Positions 1-58,569 of a DNA stretch of 64,000 bases are shown one piece after another. The notes beneath the pieces are model-generated. The model did no database searches. It saw only the letters and a program-made list of their open reading frames with translations, and was not told the origin of the DNA. The stretch comes from Tenacibaculum sp. 190524A02b. GTDB lineage: Bacteria > Bacteroidota > Bacteroidia > Flavobacteriales > Flavobacteriaceae. Location: the NCBI RefSeq assembly GCF_964036645.1, contig NZ_OZ038525.1, positions 124,001 to 188,000 of the forward strand. The letters are read 5' to 3'. The position numbers and the translations under genes are program-made. The first letter of the stretch is position 1. The number at the start of each line of letters is the position of its first letter.

Positions 1-374
1 GATTTGGTTACCCATATTTCACTTTTATCAAAGTCAATCCACTCATAAAATCTTTCAAAGTTCTTTTTGTCAAATTTTAAATAGTTGTATTTATATTTTT
101 TTGTAGTTGGAATTATATTAAATAACTTTTCTTTTCTCTTTACTGAAGCTGATAAAATAGAGTACTTCGGTAAGTTTAATTCTTTGAAAATATTTAGAGC
201 TTTATTATTTAAAACATATCCATTAAAATGTGTAGAAAAAAGGATGTCATTCAAATTATTAAACTTATCTCCATCATACATTTCACATACTAATATTTTA
301 GTATTTCCTTTTTCAACTTCTATTTCGTATTCTAAAGCTCCAGAATCATTAAGATGAAAAGTATAGTAGGTCAT
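1..374 (-). CDS. hypothetical protein, partial (C-terminus beyond the left edge)
   Basis: A minus-strand reading frame begins with ATG at 374 and stays open to the left edge (about 124 codons visible). It starts MTYYTFHLNDSGALEYEIEV and contains a short LVCEMYDGDKFN stretch. There is no signal peptide or membrane segment. I do not recognise the family. The size, the acidic beta-rich look and the setting among single-gene units recall immunity-type proteins of polymorphic toxin systems (such as Imm11/DUF1629), but this is only an impression. It is followed upstream by the structured spacer at 389-581, so it looks like one unit of the left cassette island. Confidence 0.6.
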   Translation of the reverse strand, partial: MTYYTFHLNDSGALEYEIEVEKGNTKILVCEMYDGDKFNNLNDILFSTHFNGYVLNNKALNIFKELNLPKYSILSASVKRKEKLFNIIPTTKKYKYNYLKFDKKNFERFYEWIDFDKSEIWVTK

Positions 375-388
375 TTTTGCCTTGTTGC

Positions 389-581
389 CAACGGCTTCGG
401 CTATGATTAGTGCGGAAATAGGGAAGCGGAGGCTTTCAGATTCAGCACTAAGACGAAGCATTTTGTTTGCTTTTATTTTTTTCTATTCAAAAGTCAAATC
501 AAAATGATTTTACGACTTTATAAAAATACACTAAACTTTGGATTAAAAACTAAAACCCGTATTAATCATAGCCAATGTTAC
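389..581. repeat. structured spacer with imperfect inverted repeat (cassette-end element A)
   Basis: The left arm at 399-415 (GGCTATGATTAGTGCGG) pairs with the right arm at 557-573 (CCGTATTAATCATAGCC) with two mismatches, about 140 bases apart. The right half (about 465-581) is clearly related to the right half of the spacer at 1800-1916: both run through poly-T, TATTcAAAAGtCAAAT, an AT-rich stretch, then TACACtAAaCTTT and a GCTATG/CATAGC core. The stop codon of the next gene lies about 9 bases beyond the right arm. Confidence 0.6.
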
Positions 582-1706
582 TTATTGTTTCTCTATTATT
601 TCTGTAATTCTTATTGGGAATTCATTCTTTCTATCGAGTGTGTAGTTTCGTATAGCTTCTTTATCTTTATCATTTTTTCCTTGGTAATTCATTATTTCTG
701 TTAATTCAACGTGAACAAAATTAATTTCGTCAATTAATCTTAAATATGTTTCAAATGTTGTTCTTTGAGGAATCAAAAATTCAATTTGAGTATTTAACCT
801 TGATTTTCTGTCTTTACCTAAATGTCTTACTATTCTGTTTCTTGTTTGAAATAAGTCAACAGTGTCTCCTTGAATAAAATATTTTTCAGGTCCTATTATT
901 TCAACTTTCAGGGTTGATTCTATTTGTTTAACTTTATGATTATCACAGAACTCACATATATCAACTTTATATTTATTATTCAAGTTATTTATTGATTCAA
1001 TATTTCTTGTCAATAATTGAATTTGTTCATTATTTTCTCTTTTTGATAACGCTGAAAAATATAATTTATATTCTTTGATTTTAAGCTCTTGTATTATTGG
1101 TATTACTTTATTTAAATGTATTCTTTTGTCTATATGCAACCATATTGATTTATTGTTTGATTTTGGAATTTCTTTTAAGTTTGTAATTTTATTTCCATTA
1201 AATAACAAAACTGAATTCTCATTTTCTTTTTCGAAAATAACTATTAACTCATTTTCTCTTTTTGAAGGTAAGATAGACTTACCTGTCATCGTTTCCTCTA
1301 TTAATTGAAATGATTTTGTATATTCTTTAGTTTTTTCAGAAAAATAATTTTGATTTGTTTGACAATTAGAATGTGGAGTTAATTTTAGTACACCATTATG
1401 AGATTCCATTAATATTACACCATCCTTATCAATTGAATAGTTGGTCTCAAAAGTGAAATCTACCCAAGGGTCAACAATTATTCTATTTCTTGTCAATTCA
1501 ATATGAGAACTAAAACAGTTATTATCATTGTCGGAACAATTCTCTTTATTGATAACCATTTTGTTATCTTTTATATTCCATATTTGAAAAGAACTATTGT
1601 TGTAATCCCATTCCAAATGATAATGACCATTTAGTTTTTTATTCGAACAAGATTCTAATATTATGAATATAATTATAAAAGCAATAAATTTTATTTTTTC
1701 TTTCAT
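582..1706 (-). CDS. lipoprotein of unknown function, possibly with ExbD/TolR-like segments
   Basis: 374 residues. The N-terminus MKEKIKFIAFIIIFIILESC is a lipoprotein signal peptide with a lipobox ending at Cys20, so the protein is probably anchored in the envelope. The middle (around residues 190-215, IWLHIDKRIHLNKVIPIIQE) and the C-terminus (around 320-370, TTFETYLRLIDEINFVHVEL and FPIRITEIIEKQ) faintly resemble the periplasmic ExbD/TolR fold, with its buried Asp-Lys strand followed by a helix. That likeness is my inference and the family is not established. The gene stands alone between two related structured spacers (389-581 and 1718-1921), the arrangement expected of a mobile single-gene cassette. 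Confidence 0.65.
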   Translation of the reverse strand: MKEKIKFIAFIIIFIILESCSNKKLNGHYHLEWDYNNSSFQIWNIKDNKMVINKENCSDNDNNCFSSHIELTRNRIIVDPWVDFTFETNYSIDKDGVILMESHNGVLKLTPHSNCQTNQNYFSEKTKEYTKSFQLIEETMTGKSILPSKRENELIVIFEKENENSVLLFNGNKITNLKEIPKSNNKSIWLHIDKRIHLNKVIPIIQELKIKEYKLYFSALSKRENNEQIQLLTRNIESINNLNNKYKVDICEFCDNHKVKQIESTLKVEIIGPEKYFIQGDTVDLFQTRNRIVRHLGKDRKSRLNTQIEFLIPQRTTFETYLRLIDEINFVHVELTEIMNYQGKNDKDKEAIRNYTLDRKNEFPIRITEIIEKQ

Positions 1707-1717
1707 TTTTTAAGTAA

Positions 1718-1921
1718 CAAGTAACAGACTTGTGTATGGAACGTAGCGTACAAAAAGACACTAACTTTTCGGATTAACACAGAGCCGAATTTTTATATTT
1801 TGTTTTTAATTTTCTCTATTTAAAAGCCAAATTAAAAATTTGGCGAACTTTTTAAATATACACAAACCTTTCGGTTAAGCACTTATTAGCTATGTTTTAT
1901 ACACCGTGTTGGCGTGTCGTT
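1718..1921. repeat. structured spacer, second copy of cassette-end element (B)
   Basis: It lies between the start of the 582-1706 lipoprotein gene and the end of the next minus-strand unit. The left part GTGTATGGAACGTAGC (about 1733-1748) pairs imperfectly with GCTATGTTTTATACAC near 1890-1905. An inner palindromic stretch, AAATTAAAAATTT, lies near 1830. The right 110 bases are homologous to 465-581. The gene 1922-2106 ends at its right border. Confidence 0.6.
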
Positions 1922-2106
1922 TTATTTTCGTAACTCTTTTTCCGTCATTTCAGAGTTATATATTTTTCCATCTTTATCAAAGCTCCAAACATTAGAAATT
2001 TCACGTAATTCAGGCAATTCAGTTTTTCCAGAGTCAACTTTTTGCTTTATAATTCTCCGAAACTTTCGGTTTGCGTCCCGCTTATTTTCTTTTTTGACCT
2101 ACTCAT
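1922..2106 (-). pseudogene. remnant of a small basic protein, frameshifted or internally deleted
   Basis: An ATG at 2106 gives MSRSKKK and then a stop after 19 codons. One frame over, the sequence reads KRDANRKFRR, then ELREISNVWSFDKDGK, then EKELRK and a stop at 1922. Together the pieces look like one small Bacteroidota protein that starts MSRSKKK, has an ANRKFRR middle and a V-W-FDKDGK end. The spacing between the two parts is shorter than expected, so an internal deletion with a frameshift is likely. The function is unknown. I am fairly confident of the two coding pieces and less so of the family. Confidence 0.45.
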
Positions 2107-2108
2107 AC

Positions 2109-2411
2109 TTATCCACCAACATATTTATCCATCAATTCATATACTTTATCAGATATTAAATCCATATTTTTTGATTCAAAAACTTCTTTTGGGTCTTCCC
2201 AATTTTCATTGTAGATTACAAATATTTTATATAACTCTCCATAGAATCCGACATCAATTACTGGTCCGTCTGCGTAAACGTGAGATAGTTGAAGCATATC
2301 CTCAGTTTTTTCGGCATTATTTAACCAATTTTCACTATCAATAAATCCATTAGGGTCATATTCAATATGCCATTGATTTATAGAGCTTGATATTTTTAGG
2401 TTTTTAATCAT
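2109..2411 (-). CDS. hypothetical protein (100 aa)
   Basis: A complete acidic cytoplasmic protein of 100 residues starting MIKNLKISSSINQW. It has no signal peptide and no membrane segment. Its middle, YADGPVIDVGFYGELYKIF, is beta-rich. I do not recognise the family; small acidic proteins of this sort are often immunity proteins. Its stop lies only two bases before the start of the 1922-2106 remnant. It is the first unit after the palindromic site at 2450-2476, so it holds the position of a first cassette next to the recombinase remnant. Confidence 0.6.
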   Translation of the reverse strand: MIKNLKISSSINQWHIEYDPNGFIDSENWLNNAEKTEDMLQLSHVYADGPVIDVGFYGELYKIFVIYNENWEDPKEVFESKNMDLISDKVYELMDKYVGG

Positions 2412-2449
2412 TTTTTAAGGTCTATTGGTAATGCACGCCAACGAAGGAA

Positions 2450-2476
2450 TAAACACAATGGTGTTTATCCCCATTA
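2450..2476. other. palindromic site shared with 60445-60471 (candidate recombination site)
   Basis: The core AAACACAATGGTGTTT has perfect 6-bp arms around AATG. The 27-base stretch from T2450 to A2476 matches 60445-60471 at 26 positions; the single difference is C or T in ATCCCCATTA/ATTCCCATTA. Both copies sit just upstream of the first minus-strand gene of an accessory island, and this one lies just beyond the 3' end of the recombinase remnant. That is the position of an attI-like site. A terminator is less likely because no T-run follows. Confidence 0.55.
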
Positions 2477-2503
2477 TATTAAAGGATAAAATTACAAAAA
2501 TTT

Positions 2504-3158
2504 TCATACATCTAACGGGTTTTTAATAGCAGTAAAGTTATTTGTAGCTACATGAGTATATTTTTCAGTTGTTTTAGTTGAATTATGACCTAATAAAATT
2601 TGTATATATCTAATGTCTGTTCCGTTTTCTAAAAGATGAGTAGCAAAACTATGTCTTAAAGTATGTGGGGTAACGTGTTTTTGTATTTTTGCTTTTAGAG
2701 TAGCTTTCTTTAAAATGTTTGCAATACTTGTAGGGCTGTATTGCTTACCGTCTAGTCCTTCAAACAGAAAAGTTTTTGGTTTGTATTTTGTATAATACTT
2801 TCTAAGATCTATTAAAATAGTGTGTGCTAAAATTGTATATCGATCCTTATTTCCTTTGGCATCATTTATTTTAATTACCATTCTTTTGCTATCAATATCC
2901 TTAATCTTAAGATTTATAAGTTCACTACGTCGTAAACCTCCAGAATATAATAAGGCTAAAATGCATTTGTGTTTTAAGTTATTAGTTACTTGTATAAGCC
3001 TTTTAGCTTCTTCTTTAGATAAAACAATAGGGAGCTTCTGGTGTTTTCGAGATCTTTACTATAGTATAAAATCTGTTAGGTAGTCCTAAAACTATTTCAT
3101 AATAAAACTTAATCGCAAGGGCGATAGCCAAGTGTTTAATTCCTTGTATATCTGGTGT
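2504..3158 (-). pseudogene. tyrosine recombinase (XerD-like integrase), N-terminally truncated and frameshifted
   Basis: The catalytic half is intact: Arg in LLYSGGLRRSELINL, Lys in NDAKGNKDRY, HTLRHSFATHLLENG (H-x-x-R), LLGHNSTKTT and the nucleophile Tyr in EKYTHV. The frame is open from about 3056 to the stop at 2504. Upstream, in another frame, the sequence continues as IKFYYEIVLGLPNRFYTI, the usual end of the core-binding domain, so a frameshift lies near 3045-3060. Nothing recognisable precedes about 3158. A 24-bp dispersed repeat (3109-3132) sits exactly where the N-terminal homology fades. The recombinase is probably inactive. Confidence 0.8.
3109..3132. repeat. 24-bp dispersed repeat, copy 1
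   Basis: TTAATCGCAAGGGCGATAGCCAAG, identical to 4540-4563 and 22/24 identical to 62646-62669. All three are followed by a related tail (nGTTTAATT, then about 8 bases). Here it overlaps the recombinase remnant at the codons for AIKFYYE. It contains GGC-GATA-GCC, a small inverted repeat. Confidence 0.75.
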
Positions 3159-3192
3159 CTAATGGTTTTTTGAAAATTCATATCCCTTATAT

Positions 3193-3741
3193 TTGCATCG
3201 GGGTAGTTCATTATTAAATATTTTACTTATTATTGAAAAAATAGTAAAGGTGAGCTATATTTATTTTGTTGTATGCAATTCCCCAAAAAAAACTGTAATT
3301 GAATTGAACCTAATTGAAAAAATATCAAATTGGATAAAGCCAAAATCACCAAAAGCCGAATACGATAATAGAGAATTTGAATGGTGCATTGTTGGAAATA
3401 TTGTTGATGAGCACCATTGGGGGGAAAATAAAGAAATAAAAAGAGGGAATAAACAATTTAGACCAGGAGCAAAAGTTTATTGTATGCCTGAATTTGGAGG
3501 AATGGCTTATGAATCTATAAGAGTTCTAGGAAAACCTAGAAGGCAAAATCGCTTGATTAATATTATTATCAGAACAAGAGCGATTAAAAATTTTAGAATT
3601 CAAAAAGTTTACAACCCTTATATTCAAAATCAAATAGGAAGTCACTTTTTTTATTGGAATAACAGACGTTCTGAAAATGAACTAAAAAACTTAAAAGAGA
3701 TGATTAATTATTTGAATACATTGACTGAAGAAATAAATTAA
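3193..3741 (+). CDS. hypothetical protein, possible immunity-type family
   Basis: The frame from 3193 codes for up to 182 residues, but the first 37 look unlike the rest. A TTG at 3304 would give a protein starting at NLIEKISNWIKPKSP, which better fits small Bacteroidota proteins with an FEWCIVGNIV motif near the N-terminus and RRGNK-like and GKPR segments further on. The conserved-looking part is EFEWCIVGNIVDEHHWGE, then KRGNKQFRPGAKVYCMPE and VLGKPRRQNRLI. There are no membrane segments past residue 38. The role is unknown; an association with toxin/immunity loci is inference. A structured spacer follows at 3742. Confidence 0.55.
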   Translation: MHRGSSLLNILLIIEKIVKVSYIYFVVCNSPKKTVIELNLIEKISNWIKPKSPKAEYDNREFEWCIVGNIVDEHHWGENKEIKRGNKQFRPGAKVYCMPEFGGMAYESIRVLGKPRRQNRLINIIIRTRAIKNFRIQKVYNPYIQNQIGSHFFYWNNRRSENELKNLKEMINYLNTLTEEIN

Positions 3742-4002
3742 AAAATTGCCTACAACATTAGCTGAAAAATATTACTCACGGATTTTCCCGATGGGAAAAT
3801 ACCGAAGCAAATCAAATGTTAAAGTATATTTATAAACTAAATCGCTAAACTAACGCAATATAACTTAGATGATACCGTCATGAATATGGCTTTTTAGTGG
3901 TAAAAGAAAAGCACGTATTGGTTGTTTGGCAAGAGTATATGAAGTAAAGAGTAATTATAAAAAGTAAGAAAAAAGGATAAGAATTTTTACGAGTTCAGTT
4001 TT
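3742..4002. repeat. structured spacer with hairpin and a small coding remnant
   Basis: After the 3193-3741 stop comes TGCCTACAACATTAGCTG and a hairpin, ATTTTCCC-GAT-GGGAAAAT (about 3782-3800), then ACCGAAGCAAATC. The same plan (a complementary AATTCC hairpin followed by AAAGCAA) occurs at 57258-57300. Around 3869-3943, plus frame, a fragment ends YGFLVVKEKHVLVVWQEYMK and a stop, with a stop also just upstream; it is probably a gene scrap. No other feature is seen. Confidence 0.45.
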
Positions 4003-4506
4003 TTAAACCATTCTCCCCAAACTATCTACTTTTTTAAGAAGATCAGGAATTCTGTATTTGCCAAACATACTTGTAATATTAGTTGCAGCAATATCTAAAT
4101 CTACACCTTTAGCGTTAATGTATAAAGGCTTTTTACTTTCGCCTCTTAATATAGCACGTTTAAGATTGTTAAGATTTGCAAAATTATTTTTAGCAACACC
4201 AATAATAGGAATTTCTTTGTGTAACTTCTCATATAAATAACCACCCAAACCTAATTTATCAGTATCATCTAGTACTACAAAACCGTCTATTATAATAGCT
4301 TGACAGTTGGTTAGGTCAATTTTGTTTAGAAGACTCATAATACAAGGTAATTCTCTTTTGTAAAACTCCCCAGATACATAAGGAGCAATATCACTAAGGG
4401 TTTCCTCATATATAGTTGTTTCTACTTCATCTTGCCAATGGTTAAATGCTATGCCAACTGTTTTAGCCTTGTCTTCATAGTAATAAGTGTCAAATGCTAA
4501 TATCAA
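4003..4506 (-). CDS. endonuclease V-like protein
   Basis: 167 residues, shorter than typical endonuclease V (about 220). The motifs follow the family order: FDTYYYED with Asp6, YVSGEFYKRELPCI with Glu52, IIIDGFVVLD with Asp74, LGLGGYL, and IPIIGVAKNNF. Endonuclease V nicks DNA or RNA next to deoxyinosine/inosine using a metal-bound Asp/Glu/Asp set. The usual DGHG motif reads DGFV here, and I do not find the C-terminal His that assists catalysis in classical enzymes, so activity may be altered. It stands alone; the dispersed repeat at 4540-4563 is just upstream. The family call is fairly secure. Confidence 0.75.
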   Translation of the reverse strand: MILAFDTYYYEDKAKTVGIAFNHWQDEVETTIYEETLSDIAPYVSGEFYKRELPCIMSLLNKIDLTNCQAIIIDGFVVLDDTDKLGLGGYLYEKLHKEIPIIGVAKNNFANLNNLKRAILRGESKKPLYINAKGVDLDIAATNITSMFGKYRIPDLLKKVDSLGRMV

Positions 4507-4539
4507 TTTTTAAAGTATTTTTTGGTAAAAATAGAAAAT

Positions 4540-4563
4540 TTAATCGCAAGGGCGATAGCCAAG
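4540..4563. repeat. 24-bp dispersed repeat, copy 2
   Basis: Identical to 3109-3132 over 24 bases and followed by AGTTAATTCATCGATGTCTTACATTA, which matches the tail of copy 3 (62670 onwards) at ATGnCTTACATTA. It lies 34 bases upstream of the endonuclease V-like gene. Confidence 0.75.
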
Positions 4564-4843
4564 AGTTAATTCATCGATGTCTTACATTAAATAATTTTTT
4601 TTAAACTTTTTAGATTAGATACTCGTATGCTTGCATCCAGAAAGTTCATTTGAAGAAGTGTTCTCTAATCGTTTATTTATCTCAATGTATTGTATATAGA
4701 GCGTTTATTTAAAACATGTATAGCTTTTTAGAAAAACATATATACTTTATTATAAAAACCTAATAAATAGTTGAGGTATATAGTAGTAATTATTAATGGA
4801 ATGCTTTTATGTTACTTAGTAATTAGGTATTGTGTTAAAAATA

Positions 4844-4874
4844 AAATCCTCCGATTATTTACATCGAAGGATTT
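4844..4874 (-). terminator. rho-independent terminator of the PspA/ATPase gene block
   Basis: Read on the minus strand, AAATCCTTCGAT and ATCGGAGGATTT form a 12-bp stem with one mismatch around a short loop, followed by TATTTTT. It starts 66 bases after the stop of the last gene of the block. Confidence 0.75.
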
Positions 4875-4939
4875 AAGTGATTTTATGATAGTCTGTAGAG
4901 AATTAACCTTAAAACTATTGTGCTACAAGTATAATTCAG

Positions 4940-5707
4940 TTAATGAATTAGGTAGATAAATGAGCAAAGTACAGAAAGAGTAAAGATTAATAATACTTTA
5001 AATGGAAGTTGGGTAAGCCTAAAAGTAGAAATCATTATATGTTCTAAACCATTAGAGGTATTGGTAATTGCTTGTATGTATTTGTTTAATACTTTAGTTT
5101 CGTTTTCTTCTTCCTTTAAAGCTTCTGATAATTTAACTTCTTCAAATTTAATTTTGTTAGATAATGCGGTTAATAGTTTATTGATAAACTTAGTTAAAAC
5201 TCTGCCTATTAATGGGATTTTTTCTGAAATAATACGAGAAATAAGTGGAATGGTTAGTAAATGGATAATCCCCTTAAATACTAAAAGTAATAGGTCTTTT
5301 TGGTTATCTTCATTCATTTTTCCTTTAACAATGTTTAGGTCTTCTACTACAGATTTGGTAATGTTTAAAGAATAGTCAATGACACCCCAAATATCTTTTT
5401 TTATTTTCCAGAATAGAAATAATAAGCCAATTAAACCTCCTGTAAGTAAAAATAAAACAAGCCCAACAACAGTATAAATAACATATTCAACATGGACTAA
5501 GTTTAAAAAGGCAAAACCAGCTATAAAAGCAAGAAAGGATAATAGAATAGGTCTAATTCCCCAATTAATAACATACTTAGGAAATAGTAAAAGTTCTACA
5601 AAATTTTCAACTACTTCTTCATTCTTATATTCTGAAATATCAATACCAAGTTCGTTTTTTAGTTTAGCATCTAGTGCTTCAATATCTCGTTTGTTTTTTA
5701 TTTGCAT
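4940..5707 (-). CDS. membrane protein of unknown function, last gene of the block
   Basis: 255 residues. Two adjacent membrane segments lie around residues 55-75 and 78-100 (FLAFIAGFAFLNLVH, YVIYTVVGLVLFLLTGGLIG). More hydrophobic helices follow at about 145-185 and at the very C-terminus (FKVLLIFTLSVLCSFIYLIH). The middle is Lys/Glu-rich and probably helical. I do not recognise the family. It follows the 356-residue protein by 48 bases on the same strand and is followed by a strong terminator, so it is probably cotranscribed with the membrane-stress block; a role there is inference. Confidence 0.65.
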   Translation of the reverse strand: MQIKNKRDIEALDAKLKNELGIDISEYKNEEVVENFVELLLFPKYVINWGIRPILLSFLAFIAGFAFLNLVHVEYVIYTVVGLVLFLLTGGLIGLLFLFWKIKKDIWGVIDYSLNITKSVVEDLNIVKGKMNEDNQKDLLLLVFKGIIHLLTIPLISRIISEKIPLIGRVLTKFINKLLTALSNKIKFEEVKLSEALKEEENETKVLNKYIQAITNTSNGLEHIMISTFRLTQLPFKVLLIFTLSVLCSFIYLIH

Positions 5708-5755
5708 TTAATAAATGTACTATGTGTAAGTATTGTATTTTTAGGTTGCTGTAAA

Positions 5756-6826
5756 TTAATCTCCACCACAAGAGGCGCAACTTGAACAAGAAGAGCAACT
5801 AGAGCAAGAACTACAGCTAGAATCAAACCAACTAGAATCTGAATCGCTATCCCAAGAGTCAAAGTCAAACCAACTACTGCTGTCTTCGGTTTGAGGCTCA
5901 TTAATAGGAGTAGGGTCATCTTCAAAGGTATTTGTATTACTTAAATCTGTATCAGAATCGCTATTAAATACCTCGTTAGAAGCTTCTAATTCTTTAGCGT
6001 AGCCTAAATCTTCTCCAGCATCATTTTCGTAATACGCATTGTTAATGGTTATACTGTCATGATGATGCATGATGTCTGCCCAAATAAAACTATAAAATAA
6101 ATAATCTTCAAAACCATAATAACCGCCATAAACACCACCACGGTTGGTATTGTATGTAATATCTTTTTTATGATTTATCTTTTGTTTAGGTAATATGTAT
6201 TTGTTTTTAATATACGTCTGTATATCGTCTGTAGCTATTTGTTTTTTTAATTCAAGTTGTATTCTATTTAAAAAGAAATCAAAACTCGCTGTTTTTTTCT
6301 CTCTAAATTGATCAAAATTCGCTTGAGAGTTTACTATTTGGTTAATAGCTTCGTTAGGGTTACTTGTATTAAATTCTTTAAATAACCCGGATACTTTAAT
6401 AATAATAGGATACACACCTATTTTATGATCTCTGTTAATTTCAATTTCTATCAAGTATTTAAAATCGTAATCTTCATGCTCTAAAACAAGTTTTAATTGT
6501 TTAAAGTGAATAGACATTGCTTCGTTTACCTCAATTTCATACTTGTCTAATGCTAATTTTAAATCGTTTTCTTTTCCATCTTTATCATGATAAAAATCAA
6601 TATCATCATGAGAAATTTTAATAATGTTGTTTATTTTTAAACTTCTAAAAGTAGCATTTAGTTGTTGTAGTATAGCTACAGCGGTAAACGTTTCACGTTC
6701 TTCTTTATCAGAAATAACACCAAGTGTTAAATGATGGAAAAACTTTTTAAAAGCTTTGGTAGGTTTCACTTTCTTTATCTCTGTTAATTGAGATGGATCA
6801 ATAGTAATAATTCCTTCTAAATACAT
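5756..6826 (-). CDS. uncharacterised protein with acidic region and Cys/Ser repeat tail
   Basis: 356 residues. The first 230 residues form a mixed alpha/beta cytoplasmic-looking domain with no clear family motif. After an aromatic and His-rich bridge (YGFEDYLFYSFIWADIMHHHD) comes an Asp/Ser-rich segment, then a tail with repeated SSC triplets ending CASCGGD (last 20 residues). Cys tails of this type also occur in TIGR04222-type proteins, where the role is unclear; metal binding or membrane-surface modification is a guess. The stop lies 48 bases from the next gene, and the start is 11 bases after the GRDP-like gene, which also ends in a Cys motif (CGACHN). Confidence 0.65.
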   Translation of the reverse strand: MYLEGIITIDPSQLTEIKKVKPTKAFKKFFHHLTLGVISDKEERETFTAVAILQQLNATFRSLKINNIIKISHDDIDFYHDKDGKENDLKLALDKYEIEVNEAMSIHFKQLKLVLEHEDYDFKYLIEIEINRDHKIGVYPIIIKVSGLFKEFNTSNPNEAINQIVNSQANFDQFREKKTASFDFFLNRIQLELKKQIATDDIQTYIKNKYILPKQKINHKKDITYNTNRGGVYGGYYGFEDYLFYSFIWADIMHHHDSITINNAYYENDAGEDLGYAKELEASNEVFNSDSDTDLSNTNTFEDDPTPINEPQTEDSSSWFDFDSWDSDSDSSWFDSSCSSCSSCSSCSSCASCGGD

Positions 6827-6837
6827 ATAGTCTTTTT

Positions 6838-7239
6838 TTAATTATGGCAAGCGCCGCAGTTGCTAGCTTCCCATTGGTTAGTGGCATAGGTTCCCCAAAT
6901 AGCTTCTGGGGGCTGGTTGTAATGTTTTATATAATGTGTGATAGTGTTTTGATAAATAGTTGGATTTTCATTTTCACTAGGGGTATGGTGAATAAAACGT
7001 TGGTAATGTTTTAAACAAAACTCTTGATAATATCTAGTAAACAAAATGAACTCATGCCAAGCTAAGTCTACTAATAATGACGGACTCAGTTTTTCATTAG
7101 TTAGGTGGATAAGGTTTAAAAACTTTACCATTTCTAATAAAAGAGTTTCTGGTTCAATGTTATTTTTAGTACTTATTTCAGCTATTTTTTTAGTAAGTAA
7201 GGGAATGTTGGTTAAAATATCTTTTAATTGATGTTCCAT
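6838..7239 (-). CDS. glycine-rich domain-containing (GRDP/DUF1399-like) protein
   Basis: 133 residues. The core LVDLAWHEFILFTRYYQEFC followed by FIHHTPSE matches the DUF1399/GRDP hallmark (VDxxWHxFILxTxxYxxFC...xHxP). The conserved His, Cys and His residues could bind a metal. The C-terminus ends SNCGACHN. The protein is small, single-domain and cytoplasmic. Its start is 2 bases after the stop of the potassium channel gene, so the two are almost certainly cotranslated. A specific function is not known for this family. Confidence 0.75.
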   Translation of the reverse strand: MEHQLKDILTNIPLLTKKIAEISTKNNIEPETLLLEMVKFLNLIHLTNEKLSPSLLVDLAWHEFILFTRYYQEFCLKHYQRFIHHTPSENENPTIYQNTITHYIKHYNQPPEAIWGTYATNQWEASNCGACHN

Positions 7240-7241
7240 AG

Positions 7242-8249
7242 CTAGTTTAATACCTGTTTGTTTTCTCCATTAGCAATATAAACCAATATATCATTTTCTT
7301 GAAGCGTTAAGTCGTTTTCAGGGTTTTTTATAAGCTCATCATTTCTACTCAGCGCAACTAGTGTAATTCCGTGCTTTTCTTTTAAATTAATAAAGGTATC
7401 TAAATAGTTGGTATTTACATATTGGTGTTGTGTTGTAAGCTTTGTTTCACAAATATCTAAATTACTTTTATCATTAGAAGTTGAAATTAAATCTTCAGTA
7501 AGTAAAGCTACATTGGGTTCAAAAATATAACTAGCAATAAATTTAGATACAATTTCTTTTTTAGGGATAATAAACTGAACACCTAGATAATTAAAAGAAG
7601 CCTTTAGTTCAATGTTTTCGATAGCTACAACACAGTGAATACGTTCAAATCGTTTTTTTAGACTAATGGTGTAAACCAGTGTGTCGGTATCATTTTCAAA
7701 ACTAATATAAACCCTTCTGGAGTTTTTGATATTTACTTTTTCTAGGTTTTTATAATCGTTGAGGCTTGTTAAGAGTACAAAACAATTATCATCAGAATAC
7801 AATTGTTTAATAGATTTAAGATCAATTTCATTATCTACTACAATAGCCAAATTTTCCTTAGCTTTAATAATTTGCTCTGCTACTTGTTTGGAGAACGTAT
7901 TCCATCCAATAATTATACAATGATTGTTCATGTCTGTTCCAAAGTATCCCATTTCTCTTTTTTTTAAGTATTCTGATATTTTTAAGCTTAGTTCTGTAAC
8001 AATATAACCTAGTACACCTAGGCTTCCTAGTACAAATAAAATTCCAATAAATCTACCCCAAAAAGTAACAGGGAAGAAGTCTCCGTAACCAACAGTGGTT
8101 AATGTTACTATAGAATACCAATAAGCATCCGGAAGATTATGGATATTGGTATCTGCATGATTGGACTCAATATGAAATAAACTATAGACTAATACATTAT
8201 AGATAGCAATAATTATAATGAAAAATACTAGTTTTTGCTTAGTATTCAT
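7242..8249 (-). CDS. potassium channel with RCK (TrkA-N/TrkA-C) domains
   Basis: 335 residues. The N-terminus has one membrane helix, a pore helix with the K+ selectivity filter TVGYGD (in LTTVGYGDFFPVT) and a second helix (IGILFVLGSLGVLGYIV). An RCK domain follows: NNHCIIIGWNTFSKQVAEQI is a Rossmann nucleotide-binding strand, though the usual GxGxxG is degenerate (GWNTFS). The C-terminal part (about 255-335) looks like a TrkA-C domain. It should act as a ligand-gated K+ channel. It overlaps the start of speD by 4 bases (ATGA), showing translational coupling with polyamine synthesis; polyamines are known blockers of K+ channels, which makes the pairing suggestive. Confidence 0.85.
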   Translation of the reverse strand: MNTKQKLVFFIIIIAIYNVLVYSLFHIESNHADTNIHNLPDAYWYSIVTLTTVGYGDFFPVTFWGRFIGILFVLGSLGVLGYIVTELSLKISEYLKKREMGYFGTDMNNHCIIIGWNTFSKQVAEQIIKAKENLAIVVDNEIDLKSIKQLYSDDNCFVLLTSLNDYKNLEKVNIKNSRRVYISFENDTDTLVYTISLKKRFERIHCVVAIENIELKASFNYLGVQFIIPKKEIVSKFIASYIFEPNVALLTEDLISTSNDKSNLDICETKLTTQHQYVNTNYLDTFINLKEKHGITLVALSRNDELIKNPENDLTLQENDILVYIANGENKQVLN

Positions 8250-8542
8250 GCTTGCATCAAGTTTTTAAAAATTTGCAATTTTTCTTGATTACAGCTACTT
8301 AGTTCTATATATGTTTTCTTACTTTCTGGAAAGGTGTGGATAGCTAAATGACTTTCGCCCAATAACCAAAAACAAGTATAACCTTGTTGTTCAAAGTAAT
8401 GTTCATTAAAAGCTAAAATGGTAAACTTACTTTGTTTTAAAATCTTTTCAAAAGTAGTTTTTAAAACTTCAGGATTGGTTTCTGAAATCCATTCTTGTAA
8501 ATTATATATATTAGGCTGTATATGTTTGTAGGTAGTATTCAT
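8246..8542 (-). CDS. speD: S-adenosylmethionine decarboxylase proenzyme
   Basis: 98 residues, a compact prokaryotic form. The self-cleavage site is Glu63-Ser64 in LLGESHLAIHTFPE; the Ser becomes the pyruvoyl group after cleavage, and the nearby His and Cys (SSCN, near residue 83) are the processing and acid residues. It makes decarboxylated SAM, the aminopropyl donor for the spermidine synthase encoded just upstream. The start is 10 bases after the synthase stop, and the end overlaps the K+ channel gene. It is shorter than stand-alone bacterial SpeD (about 120-130 residues) but has the catalytic core. Confidence 0.85.
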   Translation of the reverse strand: MNTTYKHIQPNIYNLQEWISETNPEVLKTTFEKILKQSKFTILAFNEHYFEQQGYTCFWLLGESHLAIHTFPESKKTYIELSSCNQEKLQIFKNLMQA

Positions 8543-57163: not shown

Positions 57164-57900
57164 TTTTAGTTCTGTTTTTTTGCTTGCACATAATGGTCTT
57201 GTGTATGGTTAGTTGCGTGTTTAAGCAACTAATTTAGTAAACAATCACGAGCCAGAGAAAATTCCGAAGGAATTTTCCAAGTAGGCACTTACCAAAGCAA
57301 TTAATTATAAACGGTATTTGCAACTGTTATTTTATTCTCATAAATGTTATTTCGGTCGTTTCTAACATCTTTTTATCCTTAGCTAGACGAGAATCAATTT
57401 TTACCTTCTTTCGTTCAATCGGTTTTATTTTCATCATTAAACTTCCATTTTGAAAGATGGAAATAATTAATGTTTATACCAAATCTATTCTTTCAAGGTT
57501 AATTAGTAAATAATGAATGAGTGAATGAACCATTTTAGATTAGGGAATGAGTTTTTCGATAATTGTTGCTAACAATTGGGTATATTTCTCTTATGTCACT
57601 TATAAATCTAACGGATTTTTGATTAGTAAAAATTATGTACTGCTACTTGATTATAAATGTCATCAGTTGTTTTGTAGGAATTGTGTCCTAATAGAACTTA
57701 AATGTATCGTACATCTATTCTTTCTTCTAATAAATGGTATTACGTCTCAAAAGGACGGCGTCGCTGTCCTCGATTCTCCAGCCCAGATTACGAAACCTAT
57801 AGAAACAAACGTAAGCAGAACGCAGGCTTAGCCAACTAGACATTCATATTTGGTCTTACAAGTCATACGACCTAGTTGTTACTTGCTTGCTGTTTTAACT
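57164..57900. other. gene-free stretch with spacer, recombinase remnant and foreign-looking patch
   Basis: It contains in order: a spacer (57170-57345) with the hairpin GAAAATTCC-GAA-GGAATTTTC at 57259-57279; an AT-rich stretch; the recombinase remnant at 57598-57740; a GC-richer patch at about 57741-57835 (plus frame GVAVLDSPAQITKPIETNVS, ending TQA and a stop); then the spacer before the DUF6326 gene. Confidence 0.55.
57598..57740 (-). pseudogene. remnant of a second tyrosine recombinase (C-terminal end)
   Basis: Minus strand: HLLEERIDVRYI, a stop codon (TAA where the relative has CAA), then VLLGHNSYKTTDDIYNQVAV, then HNF followed by further stops. It aligns directly with HLLENGTDIRYIQILLGHNS in the left recombinase remnant, including LGHNS and the Tyr of the catalytic end (YNQVA for YTHVA). 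Upstream of about 57740 the similarity ends abruptly in the GC-richer patch. Confidence 0.8.
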
Positions 57901-58494: not shown

Positions 58495-58569
58495 TTCAGA
58501 TATTGTTGCCAACGTTCTGGCTATGCGCAGTGTCCCGAAGGGCATTGTGTATAGGTTTTGTTAGCGATT
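58495..58569. repeat. short cassette-end spacer with hairpin
   Basis: GTTGCCAACGTTCTGGCTAT, then a hairpin in which GGCTATGCGCAGTGTCCC folds on GGGCATTGTGTATAGG around GAA (about 58519-58553), then TTTTGTTAGCGA, and the stop of the next gene. The same outer words (TTGCCAACG, TTAGC) occur in the spacer at 381-398. Confidence 0.6.

Follow-up and report, generated by a model that had tools for sequence, protein, structure and literature searches.

The recombinase of probable gene-capture arrays in flavobacteria lacks the protein part thought to define integrons

Integrons are the closest described counterparts of the system considered here. An additional domain of the integrase IntI is treated as the mark of the integron integrase in excerpts of PMC9668308 and PMC2426708, and integrons are listed for Bacteroidota in excerpts of PMC8618304 and PMC9668308. 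The cases named in an excerpt of the IntegronFinder 2.0 paper (PMC9024848) comprise In0 elements, a single complete integron, that of Salinibacter ruber, and those of Chlorobi and Ignavibacteriae; IntegronFinder returned no integrons for one Tenacibaculum genome (excerpt of PMC10013915), a species that may or may not carry the present system. According to an excerpt of PMC3607928, intI of Treponema is transcribed toward attI, in the cassette direction, and integron parts on phages have already been described (abstract of PMC9892861). The DNA analyzed here, a stretch of 64,000 nucleotides of Tenacibaculum sp. 190524A02b (hereafter, the window), carries on the minus strand of positions 1-3158 a decayed example of a cassette-capture system whose copies look intact in related genomes. 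Very probably, the window holds the degenerate end of a cassette array of the integron type; in intact relatives of it, a recombinase would insert single-gene cassettes at an attI-like site. The enzyme of these flavobacterial gene-capture arrays is without the protein part thought to define integrons.

Cassette arrays behind the recombinase

The relatives searched were 17 other genomes of the genus and 12 of the order, and 11 of the 17 had a listed close full-length recombinase (371-416 open codons). We fetched 19 recombinase regions, each at most 20 kb long; repeats of 122-190 nt directly follow the recombinase in many relatives, and when 20 loci, among them the window region, were searched by pattern, 14 gave sites. 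After contiguous stretches had been joined to them, the set comprised 21 arrays with 365 sites on the array strand; another 13 sites were on the opposite strand, 11 of them within one contig, and the largest array comprised 120 sites in 108 kb. Arrays follow the recombinase in, among other named carriers, Algibacter onchidii, Winogradskyella ursingii, Seonamhaeicola aphaedonensis and isolate S0862.

If the R boxes of a circular cassette pair with each other and come to sit at its opposite ends after insertion, complementarity is expected between the end of each site and the beginning of the one that follows. Consistently, the bases that come after GTT in a site recur, as their reverse complement, ahead of AAC in the following site. 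In the first set, 54 of 71 consecutive pairs closed at ≥6 of 7 positions, with 414 matches in sum versus a maximum of 276 in 2000 within-locus permutations; beyond these positions, the eighth never matches and the ninth to eleventh match again at 83, 80, and 63%. Classical sites also show 9-11 complementary nucleotides, according to an excerpt of PMC2727003. In a larger set, with repeated cassettes included, 299 of 344 neighbor pairs closed, and the plain pattern finder alone gave 213 of 288. When only unique flank pairs were considered, closure at ≥6 of 7 positions was found for 120 of 165 neighbors versus 78 of 4374 non-neighbors (932 matches versus at most 473 in 2000 permutations). The R boxes themselves vary freely, RRRY being present in 15 of 122 distinct flanks, so that a GTTRRRY consensus is not seen.

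Among 247 unique closed units, the longest ATG frame of ≥60 aa lies on the array strand in 163 and on the other strand in 5, while 79 have none; the median length is 769 bp, with a median of 31 nt from GTT to ATG and 12 nt from stop to AAC. A Bacteroidota-type promoter pattern occurs at 7 of 294 sites versus a shuffled mean of 1.2, a small excess, and the -7 box alone is not enriched at these 294 sites (18 versus 18.0 shuffled).

The sites could instead be small mobile repeats, similar to miniature inverted-repeat transposable elements or repetitive extragenic palindromic sequences, or terminators between ordinary genes, with the recombinase as a chance neighbor, a view with which their hairpins, the occurrence of some of them alone in a genome and the degenerate state of the window array would agree. 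However, closure connects neighboring sites end to start, a pattern not predicted for an element that inserts with target duplication; furthermore, the sites share one orientation, the units are compact, 163 of the 168 coding ones have their gene on the array strand, and the exchanged unit (see below) is a gene with one site. We therefore consider mobile repeats or terminators very unlikely.

The cassette reading is further supported by the start of the arrays. Seven first cassettes (G012a, G015, G001a, G001b, G009, G004 and Winogradskyella) close at 7 of 7 positions to a GTT located 30-50 nt past the recombinase stop codon, and three further loci (the window, G007 and Algibacter) close at 6 of 7, 64-170 nt from the stop. 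Thus, attI could be placed by closure within 170 nt of the stop in 10 of 18 loci and, in G008, G002, Zunongwangia, S0862 and Seonamhaeicola, by sequence similarity without closure; neither approach placed it in the remaining 3 of the 18 (G016, Sphingobacteriales and GWF2). One genome has two arrays with a common attI and different first cassettes. Within the recombinase group to which the remnant in the window belongs, a palindrome a few nucleotides before the insertion-point GTT, as found in the window, is also present in Seonamhaeicola (AAACACACTAGTGTGTTT) and S0862, and a related, less similar one is found in Winogradskyella.

Folding of the site was assessed with 20 base pairs on 43 sites: 98.1% of the cells were paired, compared with at most 53.5% in slid registers. 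The covariation score was 0.342 versus 0.106 after shuffling and was reached by none of 500 shuffles; ten pairs changed on both sides, a number reached by 1 of 500 shuffles. Three G.T wobbles of the bottom strand are constant or nearly so (43, 37, and 42 of 43 sites). Folding energies favor the bottom strand in 53 of 53 sites and in 183 of 185 closed sites of a plain-pattern set, both collected irrespective of wobbles; top-strand mismatches in the plain-pattern set are A.C or C.A (838), A.A (333) and G.T or T.G (16). Because the finder of the larger set counts A.C as pairing, its sites are biased with respect to strand asymmetry (244 of 246), and that result was set aside in favor of the plain-pattern set. 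The wobbles and the folding asymmetry may select the strand that is recombined. As no classical attC was found in the fetched flanks of eight IntI loci, which were to serve as a control for strand asymmetry, we do not claim that classical sites are devoid of the T.G pattern.

Single cassettes are shared between genera. A Seonamhaeicola cassette (L073:13120-13854) and a G004 cassette (L040:3643-4373) share 92.2% identity, with 53-64.5% outside (100 nt being comparable downstream), and a Winogradskyella cassette (L071:15094-15822) is 92.3% identical to one of G008, with 52-54% outside. Both start and end at GTT, the exchanged unit being a gene plus one site. In a third pair (G012 and G015; 85.9% identity over 1459 columns), the right end lies 18 nt past a GTT and the left end inside the preceding site. 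Among the matches listed, 15 cross-genome ones were ≥300 bp at 85%, several of them views of one pair. The cargo is diverse: 43 cassette proteins out of 49 non-redundant frames (six short doubtful frames were left out) match 38 Pfam families, most with one member each, the families listed including DNA methylases, the GmrSD nuclease, Fic, Barstar, MerT, a HAD hydrolase and TonB receptors. PADLOC listed methyltransferase and other candidate defense families.

Some arrays have features of their own. The region G012:C1:1800001-1860000 (L220-L222) contains 45 sites in 60 kb and no listed recombinase match within 30 kb, an array without its enzyme; several G012 cassettes recur almost unchanged within the array, and many have no frame of ≥60 aa. 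Locus L034 has a segment of approximately 554 bp in six copies at 99-100% identity, one of which ends in a site-like GTT. At Rfam gathering scores, no family matches the sites in L031, L036, and L039; the sole match is a Flavo-1 RNA (RF01705) at L039 718-803, just ahead of the recombinase gene there.

The recombinase and its distribution

These arrays might be regarded as classical integrons with a normal IntI of merely unusual sequence, since the closure logic is the same, NF040815 ("site-specific tyrosine recombinase/integron integrase") is passed by 2 of 4 recombinases, the IntI structure 2a3v is among the best folds, and the integron integrase model TIGR02249 matches the recombinases. Yet all 4 full-length array recombinases remain below the 265-bit cutoff of TIGR02249 (203, 206, 213, and 197 bits), which is passed by all 8 IntI rows (373-488 bits) and exceeded in none of 30 relatives. 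The gap between the KGxKxR and HxxRH motifs is 57-63 aa in the Bacteroidota rows (L054 and L060 giving no value) versus 100-101 in 8 of 8 IntI rows, which were first told apart by this gap and then confirmed through TIGR02249; the IntI additional domain, by which integrons are recognized, is absent from the array recombinases, and 2a3v aligns in two stretches around the missing part. In a quick, arbitrarily rooted tree, the 8 IntI rows fall on one side of a branch with support of 100 and the array recombinases outside; the named recombinases nearest to those of the genus of the window are from Flavobacteriaceae. Given also the rarity of RRRY, a classical IntI is a highly improbable explanation.

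Modules of the pdif type have short XerC/XerD core sites in alternating orientation. Movement of such dif-like modules by the host XerC/XerD would suit a recombinase that is Xer-like and has XerA as its best sequence match among solved structures; however, the present sites are mostly asymmetric hairpins of 122-190 nt in one orientation rather than short alternating core sites, and they follow a dedicated recombinase distinct from the other Xer-type proteins of the genome, so that this origin has next to no likelihood. The recombinase has an extra N-terminal domain of approximately 90 residues with no credible Pfam match, which is hardly covered by the structure comparison.

A covariance-model search, as suggested in the original prediction, detected sites in 22 of 30 relatives; every one of the 18 genomes of the genus is among them, with 1 to at least 117 matches each. 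In the controls, 0 of 14 and 0 of 149 genomes had matches. In 394 genomes of the phylum, sites (E ≤1e-6) were found in 80 and the recombinase (≤1e-70) in 112; an IntI over the cutoff was found in 105, only one of which (G065) belongs to the class of the window. Within the family, 23 genomes have sites, and 22 of these also have the recombinase; of the 19 site-less genomes, 8 have it. From 46 genomes, 150 sites were listed, at most 8 per genome being scored and the contigs being drafts; for 44 of them, from 21 genomes, such a recombinase is listed at a distance of ≤30 kb, and none is near an IntI. At these 44 sites, the recombinase is co-directional in 29, divergent in 14 and otherwise placed in 1, which is not the usual divergent layout of integrons; in the window and in the arrays of its genus, it is co-directional with the cassettes. 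The divergent layout occurs in G066, G074, G082, G187, G203, and G210, where the recombinase matches lack the N-terminal part of the model. Divergent layout with a shorter recombinase is perhaps a second form of the system.

Arrays of related sites were also found on three phage-like contigs, L145 (viral, 362 kb; array at 47-8452), L142, and L191, beside a short recombinase of 267-268 aa without the IntI domain. In L145, 11 of 11 neighbor pairs close at ≥6 of 7 positions, 10 of them at 7 of 7, and the three contigs together give 16 of 23. Nearly all their frames of ≥50 aa run against the top strand of the sites, toward the recombinase. L142 has a gene similar to phage nicotinamide phosphoribosyl transferases, and four L145 proteins had no PHROGs match. 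Among plasmids, 314 records match the recombinase at E ≤1e-30, as do 58 phage records, all with <60% identity.

The original prediction had seen in the window the layout of intI, attI and cassettes and, possibly, a flavobacterial cassette-capture system with sites not of the classical GTTRRRY type. The attI-like insertion points, the one-strand arrays and the closure in other genomes bear out the layout, with the correction that, judged by its domains, the recombinase does not qualify as an IntI. The capture system is supported by related genomes, although the copy in the window is a fossil, and its sites are indeed non-classical. The prediction would have been in difficulty had breakpoints never coincided with the site cores; the single units exchanged between genomes end at these cores.

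The decayed system in the window

The features of the window are collected in Table 1. The predicted XerD-type recombinase at 2504-3158 has a genuine catalytic domain (PF00589, 141 bits), but only a remnant of the gene is left: its open frame is 183 aa compared with 371-416 in full-length relatives, four of these relatives align by tblastn only with residues 174-376, at 3116-2507, and there is a frameshift near 3055-3030. The palindrome that had been pointed out (AAACACAATGGTGTTT) is exact on the plus strand and lies 8 nt ahead of the GTT. At least four single genes had been predicted, those at 2109, 1922, 582, and 1. Those at 2109-2411 and 582-1706 are open minus-strand frames, and the frame at 3-461 probably starts near 374, because it opens inside a site; at 1922, the open reading frame list (minimum 40 aa) contains no intact minus-strand frame, and on direct reading this "gene" is a frameshifted remnant. 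The spacers on both sides of 582-1706, described as related, both match a covariance model built from other genomes only (59.3 bits, E 4.7e-10; 29.8 bits, E 7e-4), and the same model gives 46.9 bits for the site just outside the window. Closure is 6 of 7 from attI to site 1 and 6 of 7 from site 1 to site 2. A general repeat search of the window recovered the inner stem of site 2 but no spacer family, because the sites of the window are too divergent. The proteins of 582-1706 and 2109-2411 had no tblastn match in the other 20 arrays.

Table 1. Features of the decayed cassette system and of the second remnant in the window
Feature	Coordinates	Strand	Basis or remark
Recombinase remnant, catalytic domain (residues 174-376 of relatives), N-terminal half missing	2504..3116	-	tblastn, PF00589
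attI-like site: palindrome 2451-2466, then GTT 2442-2440 as insertion point	2440..2470	-	sequence reading, likeness to relatives
Cassette 1: 100-aa gene 2109-2411 and decayed frame near 1921-2105; ends in site 1	1723..2439	-	
Site 1, attC-like, long type, 188 nt; model (bottom) strand is +	1723..1910	-	covariance model
Cassette 2: 374-aa gene 582-1706, no Pfam match; ends in site 2	390..1722	-	
Site 2, attC-like, divergent	390..579	-	covariance model, 29.8 bits
Cassette 3, start	1..389	-	ends outside the window, site at L008:19505-19687 (G000:C1:123505-123687)
Second recombinase fragment, residues 327-367, broken by stops	57629..57760	-	tblastn
Possible attI-like end CCCAATTGTT before AGCAACAA	57571..57580	-	direct reading
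attC-like site standing alone; at 89.8 bits, the best match of the genome	57192..57318	-	covariance model

Two direct copies of a 33-bp repeat, one where the recombinase breaks off (3104-3136) and the other 1.4 kb away at 4535-4567, may mark how the gene was cut; the 21-base core of the repeat has six occurrences in the genome at ≤1 mismatch. An Endonuclease V-like gene (4003-4506) lies beside the remnant. Direct reading revealed at 58511-58562 a compact hairpin, AACAAAACC...GAACGTT followed by GGCAACAA, which resembles a short site and is absent from the matches of the covariance model. Six site-model matches are listed for the genome at E up to 0.05, and none of its seven matches to the recombinase query is a full-length gene of the present type. 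The system in this genome, with two recombinase fragments and six listed sites, is a fossil.

Proposed mechanism and relation to known systems

In the proposed mechanism, a tyrosine recombinase of mostly 371-416 open codons would insert circular single-gene cassettes at an attI-like site 30-170 nt past its own stop codon. Each circle would carry one foldable site of approximately 122-190 nt, the bottom strand of which would fold into a hairpin, and strands would be exchanged within the conserved GTT, the simplest position being between G and TT. Because of exchange at this position, an integrated cassette would start with a variable box and end with the complement of that box, the site and GTT. 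Repeated insertion, loss and shuffling could then give rise to arrays, the longest with more than 100 sites, and carry single cassettes across genera. The architecture, closure signature, covariation, strand bias in folding energy, attI position and sharing of single units are apparent at the level of sequence; the present recombinase would be the catalyst, single-stranded bottom-strand DNA the likely substrate and the circle the presumed intermediate, with the predicted cut site as given above.

Several points weigh against this interpretation. Recombination itself is deduced from sequence patterns rather than observed, and the domain absent here is called essential for integron function in an excerpt of PMC8138268. 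Six of the 20 loci, all chosen for a recombinase match, have no site by pattern; conversely, 106 of the 150 listed phylum sites have no such recombinase within 30 kb, and 8 site-less family genomes still have a recombinase match. In the larger set, 45 of 344 neighbor pairs fail to close, and closure from site 2 to site 3 of the window is weak (4 of 7). Several of the 17 failing pairs of the first set are 1.5-7 kb long, and sites of other types have probably been overlooked in these stretches. Finally, all finders demand part of the L stem, so that the base pairs of this stem are partly selected, and they also demand the conservation of GTT.

We lean, with some reserve, toward a broader reading, in which an entire branch of platforms of the integron type exists in Bacteroidota and on phage-like contigs. 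Here, the recombination of cassettes through single-strand hairpins would have arisen or been retained although the enzyme has no IntI additional domain. The strand would be read via constant T.G wobbles and an asymmetric spacer, the branch would include co-directional forms with a long recombinase and divergent forms with a short one, and it would be invisible to integron searches that require IntI. If this is true, a large environmental group has gene-capture arrays unrecognized by such tools, and the origin of the use of folded single strands by a tyrosine recombinase becomes testable with an enzyme devoid of the supposed key domain. Among the titles and abstract starts listed from the open-license PMC literature, a scope that leaves preprints and subscription journals outside, no description of domain-less integrases with Bacteroidota cassette arrays was found.

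The enzyme of the Treponema integrons is taken as a classical IntI, unlike the present one. The direction of the recombinase is alike in the two systems, but the R' box of Treponema is given as GTTAGGT in an excerpt of PMC3607928, which is not so here. The present enzymes may belong to the "integron-like" subgroup of simple tyrosine recombinases of PMC8138268, the excerpted part of which does not tie members without the insertion to cassette arrays. Given that phage-borne integrons are known (abstract of PMC9892861), the arrays on phage-like contigs are not a first in that respect; they differ by recombinases without the additional domain and by inverted gene direction. Compared with integrons in general, the present system has no IntI additional domain, a recombinase that falls outside the IntI clade and is extended by an N-terminal domain, R boxes that rarely follow GTTRRRY, constant bottom-strand T.G wobbles and a recombinase that usually reads into the array. 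It resembles integrons, especially the large sedentary chromosomal ones, in having a tyrosine recombinase, an attI, single-gene arrays with genes on one strand, foldable sites with a bottom-strand preference, a conserved GTT and complementary R boxes at the cassette ends. Because the defining IntI domain was tested for and is absent, we do not file the system as an integron; it works like one.

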